NCBI GenBank assembly: GCA_026708685.1
Contig: JAPOUL010000114.1
Span: 1 to 46,958 of the forward strand
DNA from: Bacteroidota bacterium
GTDB lineage: Bacteria; Bacteroidota; Rhodothermia; Rhodothermales; Bin80
DNA: 46,958 nt
Direction: 5' to 3'
A program made the position numbers and the translations under genes. The stretch's first letter is position 1; each line of letters begins with the position of its first letter. Of the stretch, positions 20,387-36,149 are shown in pieces. The notes beneath the pieces are model-generated. The model worked only from the letters and a program-made list of their open reading frames with translations. It searched no databases and was not told where the DNA came from.

Positions 20387-21841
20387 ATGGGAAAAACGAC
20401 CGGATTTATTGAGTATCAGCGGGAGCTGCCTGCTTATCGATCTGTCGGGGATCGACTTCAGGACTGGCGTGAGGTGTATGAACCATTTGCGGAAGAGAGT
20501 CTGCGTCATCAGGCTGCCAGATGTATGGATTGCGGGATTCCATTTTGTCAATCTGGCTGTCCGCTCGGGAATGTCATTCCCGACTGGAATGATCTTGTTT
20601 ATCAAGGAGATTGGAAAGCAGCTTATCAACGACTCACGGCTACCAATAATTTTCCAGAATTTACCGGTCGAATTTGCCCCGCCCCCTGTGAAACTGCATG
20701 TGTGCTTGGCATCATTGACGATCCTGTGACGATTGAGCAGATTGAGCAGGAAATTATTGAGTATGCATTTCGTGAGGGATGGGTAAAGCCTCAACAGCCT
20801 GCTCGGCGGACTGGGAAGCAGGTCGCGGTCATCGGTTCAGGTCCTGCGGGGCTCGCGGCTGCTGATCAGATGAATCAAGCGGGTCATCGCGTCACCGTAT
20901 TAGAACGGGATGACAGAATTGGAGGGCTCCTCCGCTATGGGATTCCTGACTTTAAGTTAGAGAAATGGGTCTTGGATCGTCGTTTGGATCTTTTGAAAAA
21001 AAGCGGGATTCAGTTTATCACCCGTGCCAATGTAGGCGGTTCTTATGCATGTTCACGCCTTCAGGAGTTTGATGCTGTGATCATTTGTACAGGTGCCACC
21101 AAGCCTCGAAATCTACCCGTACGAGGACGAAAATTAACGGGAATTCACTATGCATTTGATTATCTGCGTCAACAGAATAAGCTTAATCTAGGTGATGATC
21201 TGTGCCGGGAGAATATTCATCAGATCAATGCAGCTGGAAAACATGTCATCGTCATCGGTGGAGGGGATACTGGTAGCGACTGTGTAGGGACGGCAAATCG
21301 ACAGGGTGCCAAGTCTGTAACGCAGTTTGAACTCCTGCCTACTCCTCCTGATGAGCGTCCAGATCATCAACCTTGGCCTTATTACCCGATGGTTCTTCGA
21401 ACCAGTTCCTCGCATCAGGAAGGCGGTGATCGTCACTGGAGTATCATGACCAAGGAATTTATGGGCAAACATGGTCAAGTGAAAAGTTTGAAAACGGTTC
21501 GGACCGAGTTCAAGGGGCAGAAAATTATTGAACATCCAGATACCCATCAAGACTGGCCAGCTGATTTGGTTCTTCTTGCCATTGGATACAGCGGACCCGA
21601 GTCAGATGGTATCGCGGATCCTCTTGGGATTAAACTTGACCGACGCAGTAATTTTAAGACGGATCATCAGTATCAGACGAATATGCCCGGAATTTTTGCT
21701 GCGGGGGATGCTCGTAGAGGACAGTCCTTAGTGGTATGGGCAATCAGTGAAGGCCGTGAAGCGGCACGACACGCCGATGCTTACTTATCAGGATTTATTG
21801 CTTTACCAACGAAGGGAGTGGGGGATTTGCCCCGCAGGTGA
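20387..21841 (+). CDS. gltD: Glutamate synthase small (beta) subunit
   Basis: GltD passes electrons from NADPH through FAD and iron-sulfur clusters to GltB. The 484-residue product shows the N-terminal cluster cysteines (RCMDCGIPFCQSGCPLGN and CPAPCETACVLG), the FAD-binding GSGPAGLAAADQM and the NADPH-binding GGGDTGSDC. The C-terminal FAD segment is GIFAAGDARRGQSLVVWAI. All key residues are present. It starts five bases after gltB. The 443 bases downstream carry no clear terminator. Confidence 0.97.
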   Translation: MGKTTGFIEYQRELPAYRSVGDRLQDWREVYEPFAEESLRHQAARCMDCGIPFCQSGCPLGNVIPDWNDLVYQGDWKAAYQRLTATNNFPEFTGRICPAPCETACVLGIIDDPVTIEQIEQEIIEYAFREGWVKPQQPARRTGKQVAVIGSGPAGLAAADQMNQAGHRVTVLERDDRIGGLLRYGIPDFKLEKWVLDRRLDLLKKSGIQFITRANVGGSYACSRLQEFDAVIICTGATKPRNLPVRGRKLTGIHYAFDYLRQQNKLNLGDDLCRENIHQINAAGKHVIVIGGGDTGSDCVGTANRQGAKSVTQFELLPTPPDERPDHQPWPYYPMVLRTSSSHQEGGDRHWSIMTKEFMGKHGQVKSLKTVRTEFKGQKIIEHPDTHQDWPADLVLLAIGYSGPESDGIADPLGIKLDRRSNFKTDHQYQTNMPGIFAAGDARRGQSLVVWAISEGREAARHADAYLSGFIALPTKGVGDLPRR

Positions 21842-22284
21842 GCGAACCAGAAGGACTCCACATACTGCATCACGCATTTGATTGGACTCATTCCGAGATC
21901 TTTGATTAGCATGAAAATAGCATCGCGTACTTGAGATGTAGCATCATTTCGTATTTTGATAGGAACTTGATTCGCATGGATATTCTCCCGATACAGAGAA
22001 AGGTTGTAGGTTGTTCATAGTACAAAAAGGTTAAAGTTAAGTGGAGGACTGTTTGTGTTGTCCTTGGATAGCTCAGGAGTATCAACTTGAAGACTAATGT
22101 CCATCAACTGCACTATATCGTTTTGATTGGTGTAACTAATTTCTTCTCGCATTACGAAATGTTCGGATATACAAACCTGTGTAGAAAAGATGAATTGGCG
22201 GTCGAAAGAATTAATTAAGAATTGTTTCTAAGTGAAAAAATGGGCAAAACCTTGCATTGATAGTTATAGACCGCAACACATCAT
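21842..22284. other. Gap with one doubtful small ORF, probably decayed sequence
   Basis: No gene here can be supported firmly. On the minus strand an ATG at 22152 opens a 45-codon frame ending at 22015 (begins MREEISYTNQ), and the frame stays open upstream of that ATG. It could be the tail of a lost gene. Another minus-strand stretch near 21840-21980 reads like a short helical fragment (DAIFMLIKDLGMSP) without a start. Neither is recognisable. The region sits between gltD and a damaged toxin gene, so it may be an eroded accessory segment. Confidence 0.3.
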
Positions 22285-22703
22285 TCAAGATGGACTATTC
22301 AGTAAGATTTTGAATTCTTCGGGAGTTACCGTTGAGATAGAAGGGAAATGAGTTTGATTCAGTTCTTTGAAATGCTTATCGTAGGTTACTATACAGTCAG
22401 CTCTTCCGGCAACTGCACAATCCGTAAACTTGTTATCATCTGGATCAGATTTTATCATGTTCCATTGATAGTGTTTAGAGATAAGCAATACGTTAGAAAG
22501 ACATTCAAGGGCTTCAATCACATCTGAGGCTGTGCTTTGTCCCATTTTTTGCCCAATTACTTCTTCGTATTCAAGAGCAATCTGCGTACTAATAATAGGG
22601 AATAGAAACCCTTATGTAGCCCATCATAAATCCAATGATAAGGTGATTTGTCCGAAATTGAGACTAGAAGAATGTTCGTATCAATTACGGATCGGAGGCA
22701 CAT
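22285..22703 (-). pseudogene. PIN-domain toxin with one frameshift
   Basis: Read from ATG at 22703, the minus strand begins VIDTNILLVSISDKSPYHW. It breaks near 22616 and resumes in a second frame as PIISTQIALEYEEVI, through DPDDNKFTDCAVAGRAD and YDKHFKEL to the stop at 22285. Joined, the two parts give a complete ~138-residue PIN_3-type RNase toxin with the expected acids (D in VIDTN, E in EYEEV, D in DPDDNKFTD, D in YDKHF). One extra T in the coding strand at the GGTTTC run would repair the frame. It lies three bases after the antitoxin gene. It could be a true inactivated toxin or a sequencing error. Confidence 0.75.
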
Positions 22704-22706
22704 TGT

Positions 22707-22940
22707 TCAAGGACGGTAAGGAGTACGCATGTGCGTATGTACAAGACGGTGAAAATCATCTTCAGTCCAGGCTTCTTTATCTACAACTTGATTGGCTTTC
22801 AATGTTGCTCGTTGGGCAAAGAATTTACCCACGATGTTAGATAATTCAATCCACACTTCGTCAGATACTTCTACATCTTGAAGTGCAGCAAGAAGTTCCA
22901 CCTTGGTTTTGCAGACTTTCTCAACATCTTGAGGTATCAT
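22707..22940 (-). CDS. Predicted antitoxin of the PIN-toxin module
   Basis: This 77-residue ORF (MIPQDVEKVCKTKVELLAAL) ends three bases before the PIN toxin start. It has the size and position of the antitoxin in PIN-family toxin-antitoxin pairs. The sequence is charged and helical with no motif I can name. Its start codon lies inside a perfect 15-base palindrome, as expected if the protein or complex represses its own promoter. The antitoxin call rests on context more than on sequence similarity. The reading frame is intact. Confidence 0.6.
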   Translation of the reverse strand: MIPQDVEKVCKTKVELLAALQDVEVSDEVWIELSNIVGKFFAQRATLKANQVVDKEAWTEDDFHRLVHTHMRTPYRP

Positions 22941-22952
22941 GAAAATTTCATG
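22938..22952 (-). promoter_or_regulatory. Palindrome over the antitoxin start codon
   Basis: CATGAAA and TTTCATG flank a single central base, giving a perfect 15-base palindrome that includes the antitoxin ATG. Toxin-antitoxin operons are commonly autoregulated through such a site. The next 274 bases, to the decayed nuclease, hold no gene. Confidence 0.45.
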
Positions 22953-23226
22953 TTTAAGATTCTTAACATGCGTGCTACTACGTAATGTTGAACTGGTTCA
23001 AACTTTCATCAATTCAAAGTCTAATGCACTTCGTGGAACTATCTGCTGTTCCATCTAACGGGGGTTTAGAGTCACGATGTCGGCACGATTCTAATGTCCT
23101 ACGGGTACTCGATTTCGTTGATCAACCCCCCATTGGTAGACTTCATAAGTCGTTTCCTACCTCTGCTAGTCAAACCACCCTATACGATGATGAGGGACAC
23201 TTTTTTCTCGAAAATAGTGACGTGCT

Positions 23227-24262
23227 TTAAATTTTAGAAGACTCATGATCGTTATCTCCAACACAGTACCATTCAATTCCTAAGGAATTAGCCACTTTGA
23301 CGAGCATTTCTACTCCACCAGATTGTTGAAATTCAACGAATAGGATGCCTGCTTGATGGAGATCAATGTTACAAGTTTGAGCGGCTGCTTCATAAATCCA
23401 TACTTCAGTTTGCCCTTCTACTAATAACCAGCAACGTGCGAACAACAATTCTCCTCTACTTCTTCTAATATGGTGATTGAATTTCAAGGTTTTCTCGTCA
23501 GATAAATGATCATTAGATATTTGAAATGCCTGAATTCCATCGGAGGTTCGGGATAGATGTCTAATATCACCATTTCTGCACCTGAAATGAGTTCACCGCT
23601 GTGGGTTGAAATTATTCGTTGATGTGCAAAATCTTGAATGAGCATCCATAAAATTCGGGTTGCTGATAGATGTAGATGAGCTTCTGGTTCCTCCAATGCT
23701 AAAATTGAAGTATTTTTCGGATGACTTTTCAGAAAAGCGAAAATAGCATCAAAACTGCAAGGCTTTGAGTACCTTCTCCATGTCTGGAGAGTGGAATTTT
23801 AGCGCCAGTAAAAGTGCCGACCTGAACTTCTGCTTTAGAGACAATCTCAAAAGCAGGAGTTGGGACAGCCTCAATGGAAATAGAATCTTCATCTGACAAA
23901 AGGACAAGAGATTGCAGATGACGCAATTGAGATTTTACTTGGTTAAAACTGGCATGGGATGACACAATGAGATCATTCACATCTTTGAGAACGGATTCAA
24001 TTTCCATTTTCATTGATGGGGTAAGCTCAGAATCTTTGAGAAAAGGCCTCCAAATTGAGCCATGAGCCGCTAAATGTAGGCTAACATCACGAAGAACATT
24101 GAGAGAGTAATATTGGATCTCGTATTCCCAATACTTGAATGCCATCATTGCATGTGCCGGTAGTTTTTCACCGTGTTTATCAAGAAAAGACCAGTGATGC
24201 GCAAGTTCTTTTTTCCTGATGATACGAACACATGACTTGAAGATTAATGTGGCTTTCCTCAT
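23227..24262 (-). pseudogene. Decayed OLD-type ATP-dependent nuclease (AAA ATPase + TOPRIM)
   Basis: Three minus-strand frames join into one protein. The first (24262 to ~23740) gives a coiled central region and PLSRHGEGTQSLAVLML. The second gives AIFAFLKSHPKNTSI, then the Walker B/D-loop LEEPEAHLHLSA and the switch ISTHSGELISGAEMV. The third gives DIRHLSRTSDGIQAFQ and a TOPRIM start with LLVEGQTEVWIYEAAAQ and CVGDND. Frameshifts lie near 23735-23765 and near 23567-23572. The Walker A region is missing at the 5' end, and the protein stops soon after the TOPRIM acids. Intact OLD-family nucleases act in phage defence or DNA repair. This copy cannot be functional. Confidence 0.85.
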
Positions 24263-24514
24263 TTTCGTTGACTTGCAGTATTTTCGGACGAATTAGTCTT
24301 GTGACTAAATCGTTCCCCCATTTTTTGAATAGTTTTAATCTATTACAGATCATAGAGATACACGTAACACAAGTCGCAGAAGGGGTTATCTTAGACCTTA
24401 GCTATTTCCCCGGGTCATAAATATGACAACAAATCGACACTATTTTCACAAAATTTTCACAAAAATGCAACTTTTATTAATTTTTGTTGTATATTAGATA
24501 TGCGTGAAAACGCA

Positions 24515-26107
<1,593 letters not shown>

Positions 26108-26122
26108 CGAAGGATCACTAAA

Positions 26123-26148
26123 GCGGCGTACCCACTTGGGTACGCCGC
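26123..26148 (+). promoter_or_regulatory. Perfect hairpin in the metY-metX spacer
   Basis: GCGGCGTACCC (26123-26133) and its exact complement (26138-26148) form an 11-bp stem with a four-base ACTT loop, 11 bases before the metX ATG. There is no T-tract, so it is more likely an RNA processing, stabilising or translation-limiting element than a terminator. Confidence 0.5.
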
Positions 26149-26159
26149 CATTGACTCTG

Positions 26160-27236
26160 ATGCCAAGAATTTCTATCATACCATCCTTTGAGTTGGAGAG
26201 TGGGGATGTCCTCAATAACATCACCGTTGGATATGAGCGTTGGGGGACCCTTAATGACACCGGTGACAATGTCATTGTTGTCGGACACTCTTTGACGAGC
26301 TCGCCGAATGCTCAATCATGGTGGTCCGGGTGTGTTGGCCCAGGCAAGGCACTGGATACCGATAAGTATTTTGTCGTGTGTGCCAATGTGATTGGGTCTC
26401 CCTATGGGACAGTATCTCCCATTTCCGTTAACCCATCTACAGGAAAGGCCTACGGTCTTTCTTTGCCCCAGGCGACAATTCGAGATACGGTAAGGCTTCA
26501 TAAAGTACTCTTGGATCGTTTGGGAGTCCAAAAAATCGCATTTGCGATTGGTGGAAGCATGGGAGGGATGCAGGTTCTGGAATGGGCTCAATACGGATCA
26601 GATTATATTCGTGGCATGGTACCGATTGCCGTTGGAGCACGTCATTCATCATGGTGCATCGGTTGGAGTGAAGCTCAGCGACAGGCGATTTATGCAGATC
26701 CCGACTGGAACGATGGAATGTACGATTTGAATGCTCCCCCTACGAGTGGTTTAGCCGCCGCCAGAATGATGGCCATGGTGTCCTATCGTTCCTTTGAATC
26801 CTTTGAAGCGAAATTTGGGCGGGACAAAAACCAGCATGGCTCATTCCAAACAGCCACCTGGCTTCAGCATCATGGTGATAAACTTGTGAACAGGTTTGAT
26901 CCATCTTGCTATGTATATCTTACTCGCTTGATGGATACCCATGATATTTCGCATGATGGGTTCACCTATCAAGAAGTCCTTGCATCTCTGGATCAACATG
27001 CACTGGTTATTGGAATTCGTTCCGACATCTTATATCCACTGCAGGAGCAGGAAGAACTATATAGTACATTGCCTCAAGCGAATCTTGAGATTTTGGAAGG
27101 TCCCCACGGGCATGATTCTTTTTTGATTGATCAAGATGAACTCAATGATCTAGTGTTGCACTGGCGACAGCAGCAGATTGATCCATTGATAGATTCATCA
27201 CTGGAACATGAATTGGATTGTTGTGCATGCACATGA
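26160..27236 (+). CDS. metX: Homoserine O-acetyltransferase
   Basis: MetX acetylates homoserine using acetyl-CoA, giving the substrate of MetY. The ATG at 26160 yields 358 residues. A longer frame from TTG at 26100 would read through the hairpin and is unlikely. The alpha/beta-hydrolase signature is intact: nucleophile Ser in GGSMGGMQ, Asp in IGIRSDILYP and His in GPHGHDSF. The N-terminal ITVGYERWGTLN and CANVIGSPYGTVSP are characteristic of MetX rather than serine or other acyltransferases. A homoserine succinyltransferase role is possible in some members and cannot be excluded. It is probably co-transcribed with metY under the SAM-I riboswitch. Confidence 0.93.
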   Translation: MPRISIIPSFELESGDVLNNITVGYERWGTLNDTGDNVIVVGHSLTSSPNAQSWWSGCVGPGKALDTDKYFVVCANVIGSPYGTVSPISVNPSTGKAYGLSLPQATIRDTVRLHKVLLDRLGVQKIAFAIGGSMGGMQVLEWAQYGSDYIRGMVPIAVGARHSSWCIGWSEAQRQAIYADPDWNDGMYDLNAPPTSGLAAARMMAMVSYRSFESFEAKFGRDKNQHGSFQTATWLQHHGDKLVNRFDPSCYVYLTRLMDTHDISHDGFTYQEVLASLDQHALVIGIRSDILYPLQEQEELYSTLPQANLEILEGPHGHDSFLIDQDELNDLVLHWRQQQIDPLIDSSLEHELDCCACT

Positions 27237-27849
27237 TCATTCGGTGTTTTGGGATCATCATTGCATCAACGTTTTGAACCTCTTTACTTAAAATTGATCC
27301 ATCCTTCCATCTGGAATCCTATGTCGCGTTGTTCTCCAATACCATGACCCTTGACGACTGGGAGGAGTTCTTGATTTACAATAGAAATCATTCAGTTCTA
27401 CAGCAATTTCAATCCCCGAGTAAGTTCACATCTTACTTTGTATGCTTGATTGCTTTTATTGAGTTGTTTCAAACCCTTGATGATCAAACTATCAGCAATC
27501 ATCCTTGCATGATGCAATCGCCCCAATTATATCAGATTGATGGCCAGTAACTCCAAGTCGAAGTAGTAAAAGGATAGGGTGGAGCACGATTGTCTGGTTG
27601 CCTTACGAAGGAATATATTTTGGTGTGCTTCAGTTTTCTATGGTTTTGCGTTTTTTGAAGTTCTTCTCTATACGTATTATGATATAAGGGCATAGATCTA
27701 TTTCTTGAGCCTCTATCCAGAGAGTTTTCGCGTGGAGAATATGCCTCACTACCCTCTGTGAAATAAAAGCCTCCGTCACACCATTGATTTGGATGATATA
27801 TATCTCAGACAGGTATCTATGTTGTTTTGAACCTTATCATTGATGATAA
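27237..27849. other. Apparently non-coding stretch, possible eroded 5' part of the asd copy
   Basis: I see no supported gene in these ~610 bases. The decayed asd copy that follows would, if full length, begin near 27385. I could not align this stretch convincingly to the 5' part of the intact asd. A 73-codon plus-strand frame at 27329-27550 has no recognisable similarity. Confidence 0.4.
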
Positions 27850-28396
27850 GTTGAACTCCCCAACATTTCTAAAAGCGTATTTGGTGTTAAGGCTGTGCGT
27901 GTGACAACATTGCAGGTTCTTAGTGCTAGGTATTCTGATGTCTCATCTCTATATGAGTTGGGAATGTTTCTGCTGTTTATTCGTGGAGTCGAAGACCTTC
28001 CCCTTGATGCATCTGACTCACTGTGGGAATCCTTGGTTATCAGTCAATTTGAAAAGGATTCTGCCTTCTTCCCCTCTCCCCATTATGATGATTCCCCCGG
28101 ATAGAGCACCGCACATCCATCTTTATTCTGGTGGACTCCCATTCAACCCTCCTTGGAGTCTGCGAACCTATTGAATATTTTCTGAATCTCATTATAGATC
28201 GTGGTTTATCATCTAAGCCTGCGAATGATCTGAATATTTGGATGATGAGTTCTCCTTCCACCCAGAGTCCACTAGGATTTTGTAGGGGGATCATCGTGTG
28301 CACTCAAAATTCGCACATGTTCATTTTTGGGCTATCAGTTCTTCACCTTGTCCTACTGTGCAATCTTCAAAGATCTGTGCAGGACAATCTTAATTA
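27850..28396 (+). pseudogene. Decayed second copy of asd (aspartate-semialdehyde dehydrogenase)
   Basis: The DNA aligns by eye with the intact asd at 33385-34449. The frame FGVKAVRVTTLQVLSARYSD (from about 27880) matches FGVKAVHVTTMQALSGAGYP in the intact gene. Near 28190-28250, ATTATAGATCGTGGTTTATC and CTGAATATTTGGATGATGAG match ATTGCAGATCTTGATTTACC and CTGAATATTTTTGATGAAG. Near 28340-28395, CTTCACCTTGTCC and GGACAATCTTAA match the 3' part. Stops, frameshifts and deletions are scattered throughout, so it cannot encode a working enzyme. It lies upstream of a large FN3 gene remnant, mirroring the order intact asd - FN3 tail further right. Confidence 0.8.
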
Positions 28397-29093
28397 GAAT
28401 TTTTGTATGAAAAGTAGTATGCCTTGACTTGAGATCGCTTCATAAGTACGTCAGGGTAAAAATAAATTGTTGTAGGAGTTGAAAGTAAAAAATTCAACTG
28501 ATCTATTTGGTACTTCATTGATTTTCTTTGTTTTTGTTCATTTAGACTCATGGTGATGTTTTTTTCTTTGTCCTATCATCTCTTTTCGGTGAAGTTATTA
28601 CGACAGAGTATGATTTCGTTGGTACATATTTGATGGTCTACTCCTAGAACAGTCATGTTTAGGAACATCCTGAACCTACGTTGAAGCGGTATATTTTTTC
28701 TGAGGATCAACCAGAGATATCCGATGATTTAAGATCATCTGCGACTTCTCAAAACACATCATCCTTACAAAGGATGGGTACTACTGCCAAGAGTGCTGAG
28801 TCTGTGGATCACATAATCCTTCATCCTCAGCATAGAATTTTCACAGAGAAATTGATAGTACAAGAAGTTTTTTCAAATGACGATGATGAACATGAGTATG
28901 AAGATTCCCATCGCATGGTTGTGCATTATGATGGAGGTTTGTCAGGAGTCACATCAGTAGAACAGCGCTCTGCTCCATCAGTTTTTTCTTCTCCGATTGC
29001 ATACATGGTAGATAGGGCAATATGGGACATCCATTTTATTTTGAATCTGATGAAACTTTGTTACAAATTCATCAATCGATCATCTTGAACATT
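28397..29093 (+). other. Spacer with an unrecognised ORF fragment
   Basis: Bases 28397-28680 are AT-rich with no gene. A frame from TTG 28681 to 29088 encodes 135 residues, polar and acidic (EVFSNDDDEHEYEDSH), with no signal peptide and no family I recognise. It may be the 5' remnant of the FN3 gene that follows, because FN3-like sequence begins directly after it in another frame. Confidence 0.35.
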
Positions 29094-32000
29094 ACGTTGC
29101 ACTCATGTGCTATTGATGTCTATACTTTATTGATTAAATGGAGCTTTCCAGATGCTCAAATACCAAGTAGAGGGATTCATCTTGAAGTTAAAACAGGTAA
29201 TTCATCATGGTCAAGAATCTCTACTGGTGGATCTCTTACACACATTCTATACTGTTCCTTGAAGTACACCGGGAACGGTATTTCGGTTTCGTGCCCAATC
29301 TTTGGGTCCTGGTGGCTTTCATTCATCATGGTCTGAATCAGGCTCATTCAGAACGTTTAATATTCCAGATGCGACGACGAGATTGAAGGCTCAGGCATCA
29401 GGTGAAAATACGATTAATCTTTCGTGGAGTGCACCGACCGATAATGGAGGTGTTGAAATTAATGGGTACAGAATTGATGTTTCTCCAAATGGAAGATCAG
29501 ACTGGGAGATTCGAAGAGAATTTTCTAGTTCTACGACGTATTCCGATAAGTTTCTTTCTCCTGAAGTGACCCGTTACTATCGCGTAAGTGCAGTGAGTGA
29601 TTGGTACTGGTGAAGCATCCAATATCGCGAAGGCAACGACTTCTCGGCCGCTTATGGCTCCAGCAGCTCTTACCGACCTGTCTGCAACTCCCATCAGTGG
29701 TAATTAGATCAAACTTTCTTGGAATCCACCATCAGATGATGGGGGAGCGGAAATCACCGGATACAGGATAGAAACCTCACGCCATAATATAGTGTGGTCA
29801 CCACTGGATGTCAATACCGAAAACACTGAGACTACATACACTCACAGTAATCTGAAACTAGGGTCAACTCATTACTACCGTGTTAGCGTTATCAAAACTT
29901 AAGGGAGCAGGTACAAAATCAAAGGTAGTCAAAGCGACTACTTATTCCCTTCCTGATGCACCGACTAATCTAAAAACATCCGCCTCGGGTAGTACGATGA
30001 TTGATCTTTCTTGGCAAGCGCCATCAAATACTGGGGGAGCAGCGATCACTGCCTATCAGATTGAAGCCTTAAAATCTGGATCTGATTGGTATGCTGTGGA
30101 ACAGGACATTCGTTCAGATACCACTGGTTATACTCACAAGAATTTAAAGCTCTCAACATTTCTCTACTATAGGGTGAGCGCGATCAATTCGATTGGTACA
30201 GGAAGACCTTCCCTGTCCGTATATGGGAGGAGTGATCCGGCGGATGAAGAGACGGTAAGCGTCCCTGATGCACCCACTGGATTAACCGCTACGGCTTCTG
30301 GGAGTAGAACGGTTGATCTTTCATGGGGGCACCATCTGATAATGGAGGCGCATCCATTACAGGCTACCAGATTGAAGTATCTCCAAATGGAACATCTGGG
30401 TGGAAGAATTTAGTGTCCAATGCGGATTCAGATGCCACCCAATACTCCCACCGTAATCTCTCTCCGAACACGACCCGTCACTATACGTGTACGGGCTATC
30501 AATTCCGCTGGTTCGGGTGCATCATCAAATGTGGTCAGTGCAACCACTGCTCCCGCAGTTACGGTCACCGTCCCAGACGCACCCATTTCACTATCTGCTG
30601 CACCTTCGGGAAGTACGACCATCAACCTATCGTGGAACGCACCATCCAATAACGGAGGTGCATCCATTACCGGTTACCAGATTGAAGTTTCTTCTAATGT
30701 AAGGACAGGGTGGATCGATTTGGAGTCCAATACGAATTCAGGTGTCACTGGATACTCTCATACCAATCTTTCTCCGAATACGACTCACCACTATCGTGTC
30801 AGTGCAATCAACACGGCTGGTTCGGGTGTCTCTTCAAATGTCGTTTCTGCAACCACTGGGTCCAGCACGGAAGCCCTTCCAAGTGCACCTATCCAAATAT
30901 CTGAGACCGCTTCGGGCAGTACGACCATTGTTCTTTCATGGAGCTCCCCATCTGATGATGGAGGAGCAGAGATTCGCGGATATCGGATAGAAGGGTCTCC
31001 AAATGGATCTTCTGAGTGGACGAATATAGTGGCGGACACGGGTTCAAAAACCACCACTTATTCTGACACGAATCTTTCGCCAAATACCACTCGTTACTAC
31101 CGAGTGAGTGCCATCAATTCTGTGGGCACTGGTGATGCTTCCAGTGTAGTCAATGCGACCACAGGACCAGCCACTACGATTCCTGATGCTCCCACTGGAT
31201 TAACTGCGACAGCTTCTGGGAGTAGGACGATTGATCTATCATGGGATGAACCATCTGATGATGGAGGCACGGCGATTACCGGTTATTGGATTGAGGTGTC
31301 TCCAGATGGATCATCTGGATGGACGAATTTAGTGGATGACACGGGTTCTAGGGCGACCAGATATTCTGAGACAAATCTTTCTCCAAATTCGACTCGTTAC
31401 TATCGTGTCAGTGCTGTTAACTCTGAGGGTTCAGGTGCCTCTTCTAATGTGGTGAGTGCAACGACTGAACCATTATCGGAAGCACTTCCAAGTGTGCCAA
31501 CAGATGTATCAGCAATCGCTTCGGGAAGTGAATAGATCAATCTTTCCTAGAATGCTCCATCCGATTATGGAGATGCACCAATAACAGGTTAGTGGATTGA
31601 AGTGTCTCCCTCGGGAACGTTTGGATGGACGGATTTGGAGTCCAATACGGGTTCTACGATCACTTCATATTCAGACAGTCCTTTGCGGCCGAATACCGTT
31701 CGCCACTATCGTGTCAGTCCCCTCAACGCTACAGGTGCAGGGGCAGTTTCAGATGTGGTCAATGCTACTACAGAGTCCGACGATATCGTCACGGTTCCTG
31801 ATGCACCCACCGGGTTAACGGCGACGGCTACTGGAACGACGAGGATCAGTCTTTCGTGGATTGCACCTCTTGCTGATGGAGGAGCAGAGATCACCGGTTA
31901 CCGGATTGAAGGTTCTTTTGATGGAATCTCTGGATGGATATAGAATCCAATATCAGATCTGCGGTAACCTCCTACGATCATACAAATCTTCCGCCGAATA

Positions 32001-32941
32001 CGACTCATTACTATCGGGTCAGTGCCATCAATTCTGAAGGGGCAAGTGTTTCATCACCGATCAGGAATGCGACGACGAATGCAGTCGTATCATTTAGCCA
32101 CTACTATAGAAAATCAATTCTATCCTGTAGGAATTGTACTTTCAGAGTGGAGCCTACCTGCATCAAATGGGGGAGTGATGCCTTATGACTATACGTTGAC
32201 ACCAACACTTCCCAAGGGATTAACTTTAAATGAGTCTACTCGTACGATCAGCGGAACTCCTTCAAACATCACCCCAGAGACCTTGTATACATGGGCAGTA
32301 GAGGATGCTACGGGTATGGTGGCCAGTCTGAAGTTCAATCTTGAAGTGTACGCACTATCCTTTAGTGAGAGCATTGATGATCAATCCTATTCAAGAGGGC
32401 AGGCGATTCCTCCGCTTATTTTACCTGAGGTGACCGGTGGGAGGACTCCAATCCAATACACACTGAATCTTTTTGATCTTCCAATAGGGTTGATGTTTGA
32501 TGTTTCAGCGAGGATTATCAGTGGTACCCCCATGGTCATTAGTCCGCCCGTGCCGTTTACCTATATGGCAGTGGATACCAAAGGTGTGCAGGATAGCTTG
32601 AACTGTACCATTGAAGTGGTTTCTCCAGTAATACGCAAGAGCAAGCACATTTGGTGGAAGAATTTGTGGTGCGCTCCAATTACCCATACCCATTTGTGCA
32701 TTCAACCCAGTTGGTGTTTGATCTGCCGAGATCCGCTCAAATACAGGTAGAGGTGTTAGACATTACGGGCCGGCGTGTGCATGAAAAGTCTCCAGTCAGC
32801 ATGAGTGCAGGAACAGGTCTTGAATTAGAACTAGATGATCTGAAGCTTCCGTCAGGATCGTATGTATATCGGATGATGGCTACATCTCACGACAGTGGTT
32901 CTGCAGAGGTTTATGTCGGTCATTTTACGAGTATTCGATGA
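29094..32941 (+). pseudogene. Broken secreted FN3-repeat protein with Ig-like domains and T9SS-type tail
   Basis: Reading across frames gives at least nine fibronectin type III domains, each with LSWxAPSDNGG...ITGYxIEVSPNG and NTTxYYRVSAINSxGxG. These are followed by two putative Ig (He_PIG-like) domains (TYTWAVED- and GLMFDVSARIISGTP-type strands, 32160-32610). The tail is like a type IX secretion signal (NYPYPF, FDLPRSAQIQVEVLDITGRRV, LPSGSYVYRM; 32680-32941). The product would have been exported and surface-attached or released. Lesions include stops at 29705-29707, 29900-29902 and three between 31533 and 31600. Frame changes occur near 29600, 30325, 30484, 31935, 32095 and 32650. This many lesions argues for real decay rather than single sequencing errors. 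Confidence 0.85.
29400..31965 (+). repeat. Array of nine ~300-bp FN3-coding repeats
   Basis: Repeat units recur at about 29418, 29706, 30000, 30310, 30622, 30930, 31230, 31537 and 31847, a period of 288-312 bases. Each encodes one FN3 domain. Units differ by scattered substitutions, so the array is old enough to have diverged, but near-identical stretches remain, for example ATTACCGGTTA followed by GATTGAAG. Confidence 0.8.
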
Positions 32942-33384
32942 TAGATGTAGGTATAAAGATCTATTACTTCATGCGTGGAACGAGTTCCACTCCAGTCCAT
33001 GAATAAGACACGATGGGTAGGTATGGACTCCATCGTTACAACACTTGTCAAGGTCAAGAAAAGAATGATCTAAATTTGTAATCCTATAGTTTTGTGTGGA
33101 TCGTTCAATGAATGAGAGATGGGCGATTATTTTCACGGATTTTATTTTCAAGGTTTAGATTTTTTGGTTCTTTGTAGGATGGTTTTGCTTTCTTGACATC
33201 AATCAGATATTCATGATGAAAATGGATTCGTTCTGTCGTAAAAAGTGATTTGGAATGTTTCCTCCCCCGATTCTATGAGTGGCAATGATGGATTAAGATG
33301 AGCATCAAATTCAATTTCTTCGGTTAAGCTTGTTACAAAGAGTGCCCAATATCGTAAAATGCGGTCAATTCATTCACTTGTAAG
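32942..33384. other. Intergenic region upstream of asd
   Basis: These 443 bases hold no supported gene. A minus-strand 60-codon frame at 33151-32969 has no similarity. The asd promoter should lie here; TTCTTGACATCAATCAGATA at about 33191 has a TTGACA-like box but no clear partner. I see no riboswitch. Confidence 0.4.
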
Positions 33385-34449
33385 ATGATGATGCGTGAGC
33401 TTCGGGCTGGAATTCTCGGTGCCACTGGAGCAGTTGGCCAAAAGTTTATAGAACTTCTGGCGGATCATCCCTGGTTTAAGGTGACGGCTCTGGTTGCATC
33501 TGAGCGATCTGCAGGATGTCGATATAGTGAAGCGGTCAACTGGATTGGGACTGCAGATATTCCAGCGTCTATGGCATCCATGGAAGTATTGCCTTTGGGT
33601 GGCGATTTACCTTGTGATTTTGTGTTTTCAGGACTTCATGCTTCCGTTGCCGATCATGCGGAGCCACATCTTGCTAAAGCCGGTTATCCTGTGATTTCCA
33701 ATGCGAAGAGTTATCGGATGGACGAGCGTGTTCCGCTACTCATCCCCGAGGTCAACCCTGATCACATCGCTCTTATTCACCAACAGGATTGGCAGAGTAA
33801 TGGATACATTGTAACGAACCCCAATTGTTCAACGGTCGGTTTAACATGTGCATTAAAGCCTCTCCATGACTGCTTCGGTGTCAAGGCTGTGCATGTAACT
33901 ACGATGCAGGCTCTTTCTGGTGCGGGATATCCAGGGGTCTCTTCTCTAGATGCATTGGGAAATGTGGTCCCATTTATTGGTGGAGAAGAGGATAAACTAG
34001 TTCATGAACCCAATAAACTGCTTGGATTTCTGGATGGAAATCAATTGCAGAAGGCTTCCATTGCCATCAGTGCTCAATGCAATCGTGTACCTGTTTTGGA
34101 AGGGCATCTGGAATGCGTTTCGGTGCAGTTGGACTCTAATACGACCCCTGCTGGAATTCATCAGGCGATGGAATCGTATTCAAGTCCTATTGCAGATCTT
34201 GATTTACCTTCAATGCCAGCGAAATTTCTGAATATTTTTGATGAAGAACGTTTCCCTCAGCCACGAAGACATTTGGATCTTGGACAAGGAATGACCGTGA
34301 GTATCGGCAGAATTCGTCCATGCGAAGTGTTAGATTATAAGTTTGTTGTCTTGTCCCACAACACGGTTAGAGGAGCCGCGGGCGGTGCAATCTTAAATGC
34401 CGAATTGCTCATAAAAAAAGGTTTTCTTCATCCAAGAGGTAACTTCTAG
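33385..34449 (+). CDS. asd: Aspartate-semialdehyde dehydrogenase (archaeal/fungal-type)
   Basis: Asd reduces aspartyl phosphate to aspartate semialdehyde, the branch point to lysine, threonine and methionine. The 354-residue product has the N-terminal NADP-binding GILGATGAVGQKFI and the catalytic Cys in TNPNCSTVGL (C148). It also has TTMQALSGAGYPGV and the His region VLEGHLECVSV. Spacing and length fit the class found in archaea, fungi and several bacteria rather than the E. coli type. Three ATG codons in a row start at 33385; the first is used here. It is intact and flanked on both sides by copies of an FN3-protein tail, and a decayed asd lies 5 kb to the left. With metX and metY it links to methionine synthesis. 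Confidence 0.95.
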   Translation: MMMRELRAGILGATGAVGQKFIELLADHPWFKVTALVASERSAGCRYSEAVNWIGTADIPASMASMEVLPLGGDLPCDFVFSGLHASVADHAEPHLAKAGYPVISNAKSYRMDERVPLLIPEVNPDHIALIHQQDWQSNGYIVTNPNCSTVGLTCALKPLHDCFGVKAVHVTTMQALSGAGYPGVSSLDALGNVVPFIGGEEDKLVHEPNKLLGFLDGNQLQKASIAISAQCNRVPVLEGHLECVSVQLDSNTTPAGIHQAMESYSSPIADLDLPSMPAKFLNIFDEERFPQPRRHLDLGQGMTVSIGRIRPCEVLDYKFVVLSHNTVRGAAGGAILNAELLIKKGFLHPRGNF

Positions 34450-34507
34450 TTCGTAGAGATTCAAAAAACGGAAGCCCCAAAAAAAGAAGTAACTTGGGCA
34501 AGCCCCT

Positions 34508-34985
34508 AACCCAATATATTCTGAATCTTTTTGAACTACCATTGGGATTGATGTTTCAACCAGAAGCATCAATGAACCCCTCTGGCTACAGTCCTCCAGT
34601 GCCGTTTACCTTCAAGGCAGTGGAATGAATGGAGGACAGGATATCCTAAAATTTACCATTGAATAGTTTCCCCTGTCAATACGAGGAAGAACCGGATTTG
34701 GCTGAGGACTTTATGGTACCTCTAATTCCCCAAATCCATTTTTGTCTTCAACTCAGCTGGCTTTTGATCTTTTATGGTCTGCAGATGTCCACATGAAGTG
34801 TTGACATAACGGGAAGGAGAGTGTATGAGAAGCCTCCCCTTCAAATGAGTAGGGAGCAGGGCTTCAATTAGAACTAAACAACTTGAAGCTTCCATCAGGT
34901 TCGTAGGTTTTTCGGATGATAGCCAAATTTCACGACAGTGGCGCTACGGAGGTGCATGTGGGTCATTTTATGAGTATTCGATGAT
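34508..34985 (+). pseudogene. Degenerate copy of the FN3-protein C-terminal tail
   Basis: This stretch repeats 32449-32943 in the same orientation. CTGAATCTTTTTGA, GTGCCGTTTACC, GAAGCTTCC and GAGTATTCGATGATA occur in both at matching spacing, as do CACGACAGTGG and GGTCATTTTA. The copy has stops and deletions and no upstream FN3 repeats. With the decayed asd on the left, it shows that an asd-plus-FN3 block was once duplicated in tandem. The 220 bases after it, to the tRNA, hold nothing recognisable. Confidence 0.85.
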
Positions 34986-35208
34986 ACGTGCAAAAAGAAT
35001 GATTTGAAATGATCCGAGCGTTTGTACGGGTAGCCAATCGTTTCAATGGTGCCTCTGTGTACATAGGAGTAGATCTCGGTTCAACCACAAAATTGATTGT
35101 ATCAGATTGATGTGATAGCACGATCATGTTGTTTATGTTTAAGGATTGTGATGTTGTGATGCCACGGTTGGAACCATGGTTGTGATTTAGCGTGTAACCT
35201 GTCCAACA

Positions 35209-35281
35209 GCGGGAATAGCTCAGTTGGTAGAGCATCTGCTTGCCATGCAGAAGGTCGCGAGTTCAAGTCTCGTTTCCCGCT
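35209..35281 (+). tRNA. tRNA-Gly (GCC)
   Basis: A full cloverleaf can be drawn. The acceptor stem is GCGGGAA/TTCCCGC, the D stem GCTC/GAGC, and the anticodon stem TCTGC/GCAGA with loop TTGCCAT (anticodon GCC at 35242-35244). The T arm is GCGAG-TTCAAGT-CTCGT. The discriminator base is T and CCA is not encoded. It decodes GGC/GGU glycine codons. Confidence 0.95.
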
Positions 35282-35300
35282 CATTTAGGTACATATGTGA

Positions 35301-35323
35301 ACGCTGATCTCATCATTCAGCGT
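35301..35323 (+). terminator. Possible hairpin downstream of tRNA-Gly
   Basis: ACGCTGA and TCAGCGT form a perfect 7-bp stem 20 bases after the tRNA. No T-tract follows, so terminator function is weakly supported. The remaining ~235 bases to lptC are empty of genes. Confidence 0.3.
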
Positions 35324-35558
35324 GCGAAAGAATGACTTACAATAGACAGTGCACAAGGTGATGGGGTAGCAATACACACTTGTATTGCATTCTCGAAAAA
35401 TACTGAGCGATAGTGATGACCTCTTAAATCCTCTGGATGATCATATCTGATTAATTCCATGGTTCTGATTAAAAGAGAGTTTGATGAATTTCCGCCTTTT
35501 CATTTCTCATCCGTTGATTTGTTGTCAATATCTTCCTTTATCAAGTGGTTCACCCGAG

Positions 35559-36149
35559 ATGACTGTACATTGGCAGGCGGTTCGTCTTTCCGCAAGTGTG
35601 ATTCATTTGTTTTTCTTTGCCGTACTTCTAACTTCATGTACGCAGCAGGAAGTATCAGGCGTGTATGGATCTTCTTTTGACAGTCCCTCCAAAGAGAGTT
35701 GGAATGTCCATATTGTCATGTCGCAAGCGGCTTCGGATGCTGATGAGAGTTTTCCAAGAGTACGTATTTCTGCAGATCATGTCCAGTGGATAGGGCGGGG
35801 GGATTCTACGATTCAGTATCTTTATGGAGTTGATCGGAAAGTAGAGATTGAAATTTTTGATTCCACTGGTGTACAATCAGCATTCTTGGAGGCAGATCGT
35901 GTAACTTATCACGAAAAGGAAGAGTATTTTACTGCTGAGGGCAATGTTCGAATTGAAACGACGGATCAGCGGATGCTCACAACGGATTGGCTTGAGTGGT
36001 GGGAAAGTGATCATCGATTACGGACGCACAGTTTTGTGACGATTCGTACACCTGATGAAGTTGTTTCGGGCGTTGGACTTGAGGCAACCGAAGATTTGGG
36101 TTCGTATCAGATTGGCAGGTTTCAGGCAAAGATCATTCCTGATTCATGA
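35559..36149 (+). CDS. lptC: LPS export lipoprotein LptC
   Basis: The ATG at 35559 gives 196 residues beginning with a lipoprotein signal (hydrophobic VIHLFFFAVLLTSC; lipobox Cys 27). Frames opening earlier at 35481 add a segment unlike a signal peptide. The rest is the LptC/OstA-type beta-jellyroll, with repeated strands such as SAFLEADRVTYHEKEEYFTA and EGNVRIETTDQRMLTTDWLEW. LptC links the inner-membrane LptBFG extractor to periplasmic LptA. Its stop overlaps the next gene (ATGA), and the following genes encode an LptA-like protein and LptB, which strongly supports the call. The lipid anchor, as opposed to a membrane helix, is common in Bacteroidota-like bacteria. Confidence 0.85.
   Translation: MTVHWQAVRLSASVIHLFFFAVLLTSCTQQEVSGVYGSSFDSPSKESWNVHIVMSQAASDADESFPRVRISADHVQWIGRGDSTIQYLYGVDRKVEIEIFDSTGVQSAFLEADRVTYHEKEEYFTAEGNVRIETTDQRMLTTDWLEWWESDHRLRTHSFVTIRTPDEVVSGVGLEATEDLGSYQIGRFQAKIIPDS

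Follow-up and report, generated by a model that had tools for sequence, protein, structure and literature searches.

A block duplication of asd, comprising at least its 3' half, together with the FN3 gene beside it, followed by asynchronous decay, is the probable origin of the asd region described here. The window is the entire contig C39 (46,958 nt) of a draft genome of 3.83 Mb in 170 contigs. The initial annotation had proposed the order asd'-FN3-asd-FN3 tail in direct orientation, which was confirmed far above chance: asd and asd' are 62% identical over 492 nt (E = 2e-30; direct orientation, offset 5994 nt), tail and tail' are 72% identical over 504 nt (E = 2e-80; direct orientation, offset 2043–2058 nt), and the two sample motifs named earlier fall within these alignments.

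Results

Layout of the duplicated locus

The window contains the following features, where C57 denotes the contig with an intact FN3 paralog.

26100–27236 (+): metX-like acyltransferase (Pfam Abhydrolase_1; synteny), the left neighbor of asd kept in all congeners read
27237–27834 (+): stretch from metX to asd', with no recognizable asd 5' half and no second copy in the genome
27835–28396 (+): asd', decayed 3' part of asd, codons about 150–345 (62% nucleotide identity, E = 2e-30; UFBoot 99; AU test)
28500–32941 (+): FN3 pseudogene, left copy (Pfam fn3 and He_PIG; frames and stops compared to intact paralogs)
32942–33384 (+): FN3 3' flank remnant, then asd upstream region (weak match to the C57 3' flank at equal offset)
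33385–34449 (+): intact asd, aspartate-semialdehyde dehydrogenase (Pfam Semialdhyde_dh and Semialdhyde_dhC; own-genome search)
34497–34985 (+): tail', degenerate 3' end of the second FN3 copy (72% nucleotide identity to 32439–32941, E = 2e-80; six in-frame stops)
35209–35282 (+): tRNA-Gly(GCC), ancestral right neighbor of asd (ARAGORN)
35481–36149 (+): lptC-like gene, conserved right flank (synteny)

The asd at 33385–34449 is intact as annotated and is the only intact copy found by own-genome search; both asd domains, NAD-binding and dimerization, scored above Pfam cut-offs across 33385–34446 (PF01118, E = 1.1e-29; PF02774, E = 2.6e-33). Other boundaries required revision. The decayed asd placed at 27850–28396 is real, but it is confined to the gene's 3' half, with similarity from near 27835 (about asd codon 150). 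The left FN3 gene is likewise real, but it starts near 28.5 kb rather than at 29094, as residue 27 of the protein encoded on contig C139 of the congener G005 aligns at 28558. Its description as a remnant was correct, as the gene is itself a pseudogene with reading frames in the order 3-1-2-1 and several internal stops. It contains FN3 repeats, two He_PIG domains and a C-terminal sorting-like tail, with matches above Pfam cut-offs to PF00041 (E = 3.6e-37, three stretches) and PF05345 (E = 3.1e-20); the 96-aa tail is sorting-domain-like by eye and has no Pfam match. The second tail, annotated at 34508–34985, is indeed a degenerate 3' end, although homology extends further left, to 34497, which is 48 nt past the asd stop.

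The ancestral arrangement has a single asd and no FN3 gene

By its asd, the genome has Rhodothermales metagenome-assembled genomes as relatives, which, like the bacterium itself, are probably sponge-associated as judged from isolate names. The order OAHS-metX-asd-lptC-ostA-lptB with one asd recurs wherever flanks were read, in eight congeners and one additional member of the family, and no FN3 match was found in the asd stretch read in any of them. In these relatives, tRNA-Gly(GCC) separates asd from lptC; in the congeners it follows asd by about 60–80 nt. A search for single or double copies returned a single asd match in all nine congeners (9/9). Because the congeners share this single-asd, FN3-free order, the 8-kb stretch in the window is derived. 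Further upstream, the interval between gltD and the OAHS gene (21841–24737) is long and contains short ORFs only; the gap in L045 is only about 0.4 kb.

asd' groups with the resident asd

The best match of asd' over 512 aligned nt is the window's asd, at 57% identity; no other asd exceeds 50%. It carries 21 of the 49 window-private bases, compared to 12 of the 141 private bases of nine other species, and keeps 61% of the sites invariant across ten species. The maximum likelihood tree pairs asd' with the asd of the window (UFBoot 99), and the AU test rejected five other placements (p 0.004–0.042). Given this sister relation, asd was duplicated on the window's lineage.

The extent of asd' bears on how the duplication took place. 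Global alignment of asd' to asd gave z = 61 for the 3' half and z = −0.1 for the 5' half, and the similarity starts sharply near asd position 33830–33840. The asd 5' half was looked for between metX and about 27835 and was not found, and the stretch 27237–27860 yielded only 20-nt chance matches elsewhere in the genome. In a decay simulation, a full asd' eroding like its 3' half would usually be detected, although slightly faster 5' erosion would hide the 5' half. Because this half is undetectable, a clean tandem duplication needs its later loss; alternatively, the left asd may have been 5'-truncated from the outset, and hence have come by duplicative insertion of an asd 3'-FN3 segment.

The FN3 copies belong to one narrow subfamily

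The window's genome contains 43 matches to the tail region of the intact FN3 paralog on C57. At 73–78% DNA identity, only four copies were found: the window left copy, the window right copy, C57 and the homolog on C139 of G005. Both window tails fall in one narrow subfamily (73–78% nucleotide identity) among many related genes per genome, yet each resembles C57 and C139 as much as it resembles the other. Site patterns among the four tails are 13/10/10; the grouping of tail with tail' received a bootstrap of 61, and the AU test (0.67/0.42/0.20, few replicates) did not reject the other two topologies. The earlier claim of tandem duplication is thus supported in part: the tree, private bases and synteny give good support for duplication of asd in direct order, but tail and tail' do not emerge as clear sisters (61% bootstrap). 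Duplication of FN3 in the same event as asd is nevertheless likely, as it is the simplest reading of the gene order.

Ahead of the intact asd (32942–33384), a metX remnant was looked for and not found, so the duplication junction was not located. This stretch has only a weak FN3 3' flank match, and neutral sequence of such age may be unrecognizable. No flanking repeats were found at the C57 FN3 locus.

asd' and the FN3 copies decayed at different times

Divergence between asd and asd' at codon positions 1/2/3 is 0.41/0.39/0.50, as expected of a long-dead gene. The corresponding values are 0.21/0.17/0.41 for tail and tail' and 0.19/0.12/0.36 for the intact pair C57/C139 (OAHS and metX rows were left out as out of frame). 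Third-position divergence is thus similar for asd/asd' (0.50) and tail/tail' (0.41), whereas positions 1 and 2 are unlike. The closeness of the tail values to those of the intact pair indicates that constraint on the FN3 copies outlasted that on asd' by far; the tails were under coding constraint until recently, and asd' has long been unconstrained. The reciprocal decay proposed in the initial annotation describes the end state, but it was not simultaneous: both FN3 genes are now inactive, and the decay of asd' long preceded that of the two tails.

A related FN3-tRNA fragment in a congener

Contig C139 of G005 (L133) carries an intact FN3 homolog followed by a copy of tRNA-Gly. It aligns continuously with window positions 34512–35522, starting in tail', crossing tRNA-Gly and ending just inside lptC. 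Taken separately, its flank past the tRNA is still homologous (score 33, compared to a best of 21 from 300 shuffles). At G005's own asd locus, the match to the window is confined to the tRNA. The FN3-tRNA-lptC linkage therefore existed, as present in C139, and the alignment supports a single-copy FN3-tRNA intermediate. The C139 tRNA-Gly(GCC) is a damaged relic (L133 3270–3343, − strand) with a disturbed predicted fold. It carries a base otherwise found only in the window's tRNA-Gly, does not have the two bases private to the tRNA-Gly of G005 itself, and shows three further changes. An asd remnant was looked for upstream of the C139 FN3 gene, with no significant result, and regarding an FN3 gene near fadB in G005, contig C6 is absent among the FN3 matches listed.

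Four-fold-site identity between the window's genome and G005 is 0.31–0.33 for four core genes and 0.51–0.67 for the best FN3 pairs; the excess of FN3 pairs over core genes at synonymous sites agrees with transfer. A piece of the locus has likely moved between species, as judged from the four core genes and one tRNA base. Across the FN3/T9SS-like genes compared in G000 and G005 (L007–L010, L125, L133 and L135–L137), the identities suggest exchange of surface genes between species.

The C139 FN3 gene is flanked by direct copies of a bPH2-like gene pair (L133 1059–3017 and 8247–10204), 99.6% identical over 1959 nt with the right one 5'-truncated; a strain chimera in the assembly is possible. The epimerase-like gene of the left C139 flank is ancestral in congeners. 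One speculative and rather unlikely generalization is that this FN3 subfamily is a mobile surface-protein unit in the genus, which would carry stretches of flanking chromosome along as it moves from locus to locus and from species to species (in G005, a tRNA-Gly copy and the start of lptC) and end between direct duplications of a neighbor gene (asd here, the bPH2 genes in G005) with no recognized transposase.

Discussion

We infer one event for asd and FN3, by ordinary illegitimate or unequal recombination. The ancestor would have had a large FN3/He_PIG surface gene between asd and tRNA-Gly (metX-asd-FN3-tRNA-lptC), and direct duplication of at least the 3' half of asd with FN3 would have produced asd'-FN3-asd-FN3. 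The redundant left asd would have decayed first, with the complete right asd keeping function, and both FN3 genes would have stayed under coding constraint much longer. Later, the right FN3 gene would have lost about 3.9 kb to become a stub, and the left one would have gained frameshifts and stops. As intact FN3 relatives are present elsewhere (C57), FN3 function need not have been lost.

The main rival, which we consider possible but unlikely, is that a chromosome already carrying asd-FN3-tRNA acquired, in its metX-asd gap, a fragment made up of the asd 3' half and FN3, copied from itself or from a sister strain; the left asd would then have been incomplete at its 5' end from the beginning. 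The sharp start of similarity and missing 5' half of asd' fit this origin, as does the ectopic insertion in G005 of a comparable fragment (FN3-tRNA-lptC start), but insertion right beside the source is an extra assumption and the simulation is compatible with a full asd' eroding faster at its 5' end. Neither this insertion nor block duplication requires a new mechanism. Independent insertion of two members of a mobile FN3 family, one to the left and one to the right of an asd duplicated on its own, is improbable. The equidistance of both tails from C57 and C139 (73–78%; 13/10/10) makes two arrivals possible and counts against one event, and the closest family members lie at different sites in different species; however, three events would be needed, the observed order is that predicted by one duplication, and both tails fall within the same small subfamily. 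Chance similarity or assembly artefact is very improbable even for a draft genome of 170 contigs, as the alignments refute chance (E = 2e-30 and 2e-80), copies 57–74% identical are too divergent for repeat-driven misassembly, and the genes on either side are undamaged and keep their conserved order.

Under block duplication, the order of events remains readable: constraint was lost early in the housekeeping copy and far later in the surface genes. The relic tRNA-Gly of G005 is also a marker, of a kind seldom available, of which way a putative attachment gene would have passed between related bacteria. The locus is a case of ordinary genome evolution, with a mobility aspect of interest. It shares with tandem duplication and loss of redundant copies, as in ordinary bacterial gene amplification and decay, the direct order, the early decay of a redundant biosynthetic copy and the retention of one intact copy; it differs in that the left asd lacks a 5' half and that both FN3 copies are dead, having died later than asd'. 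Enrichment of fibronectin III (FN3-domain) genes in bacteria associated with sponges has been reported, and such genes for attachment proteins figure among those laterally transferred in sponge symbionts (PMC8163846). Compared to those proteins, the FN3 gene described here has He_PIG domains and a sorting-like tail, adjoins asd and tRNA-Gly, and seems to have taken a copy of the tRNA along into another species.
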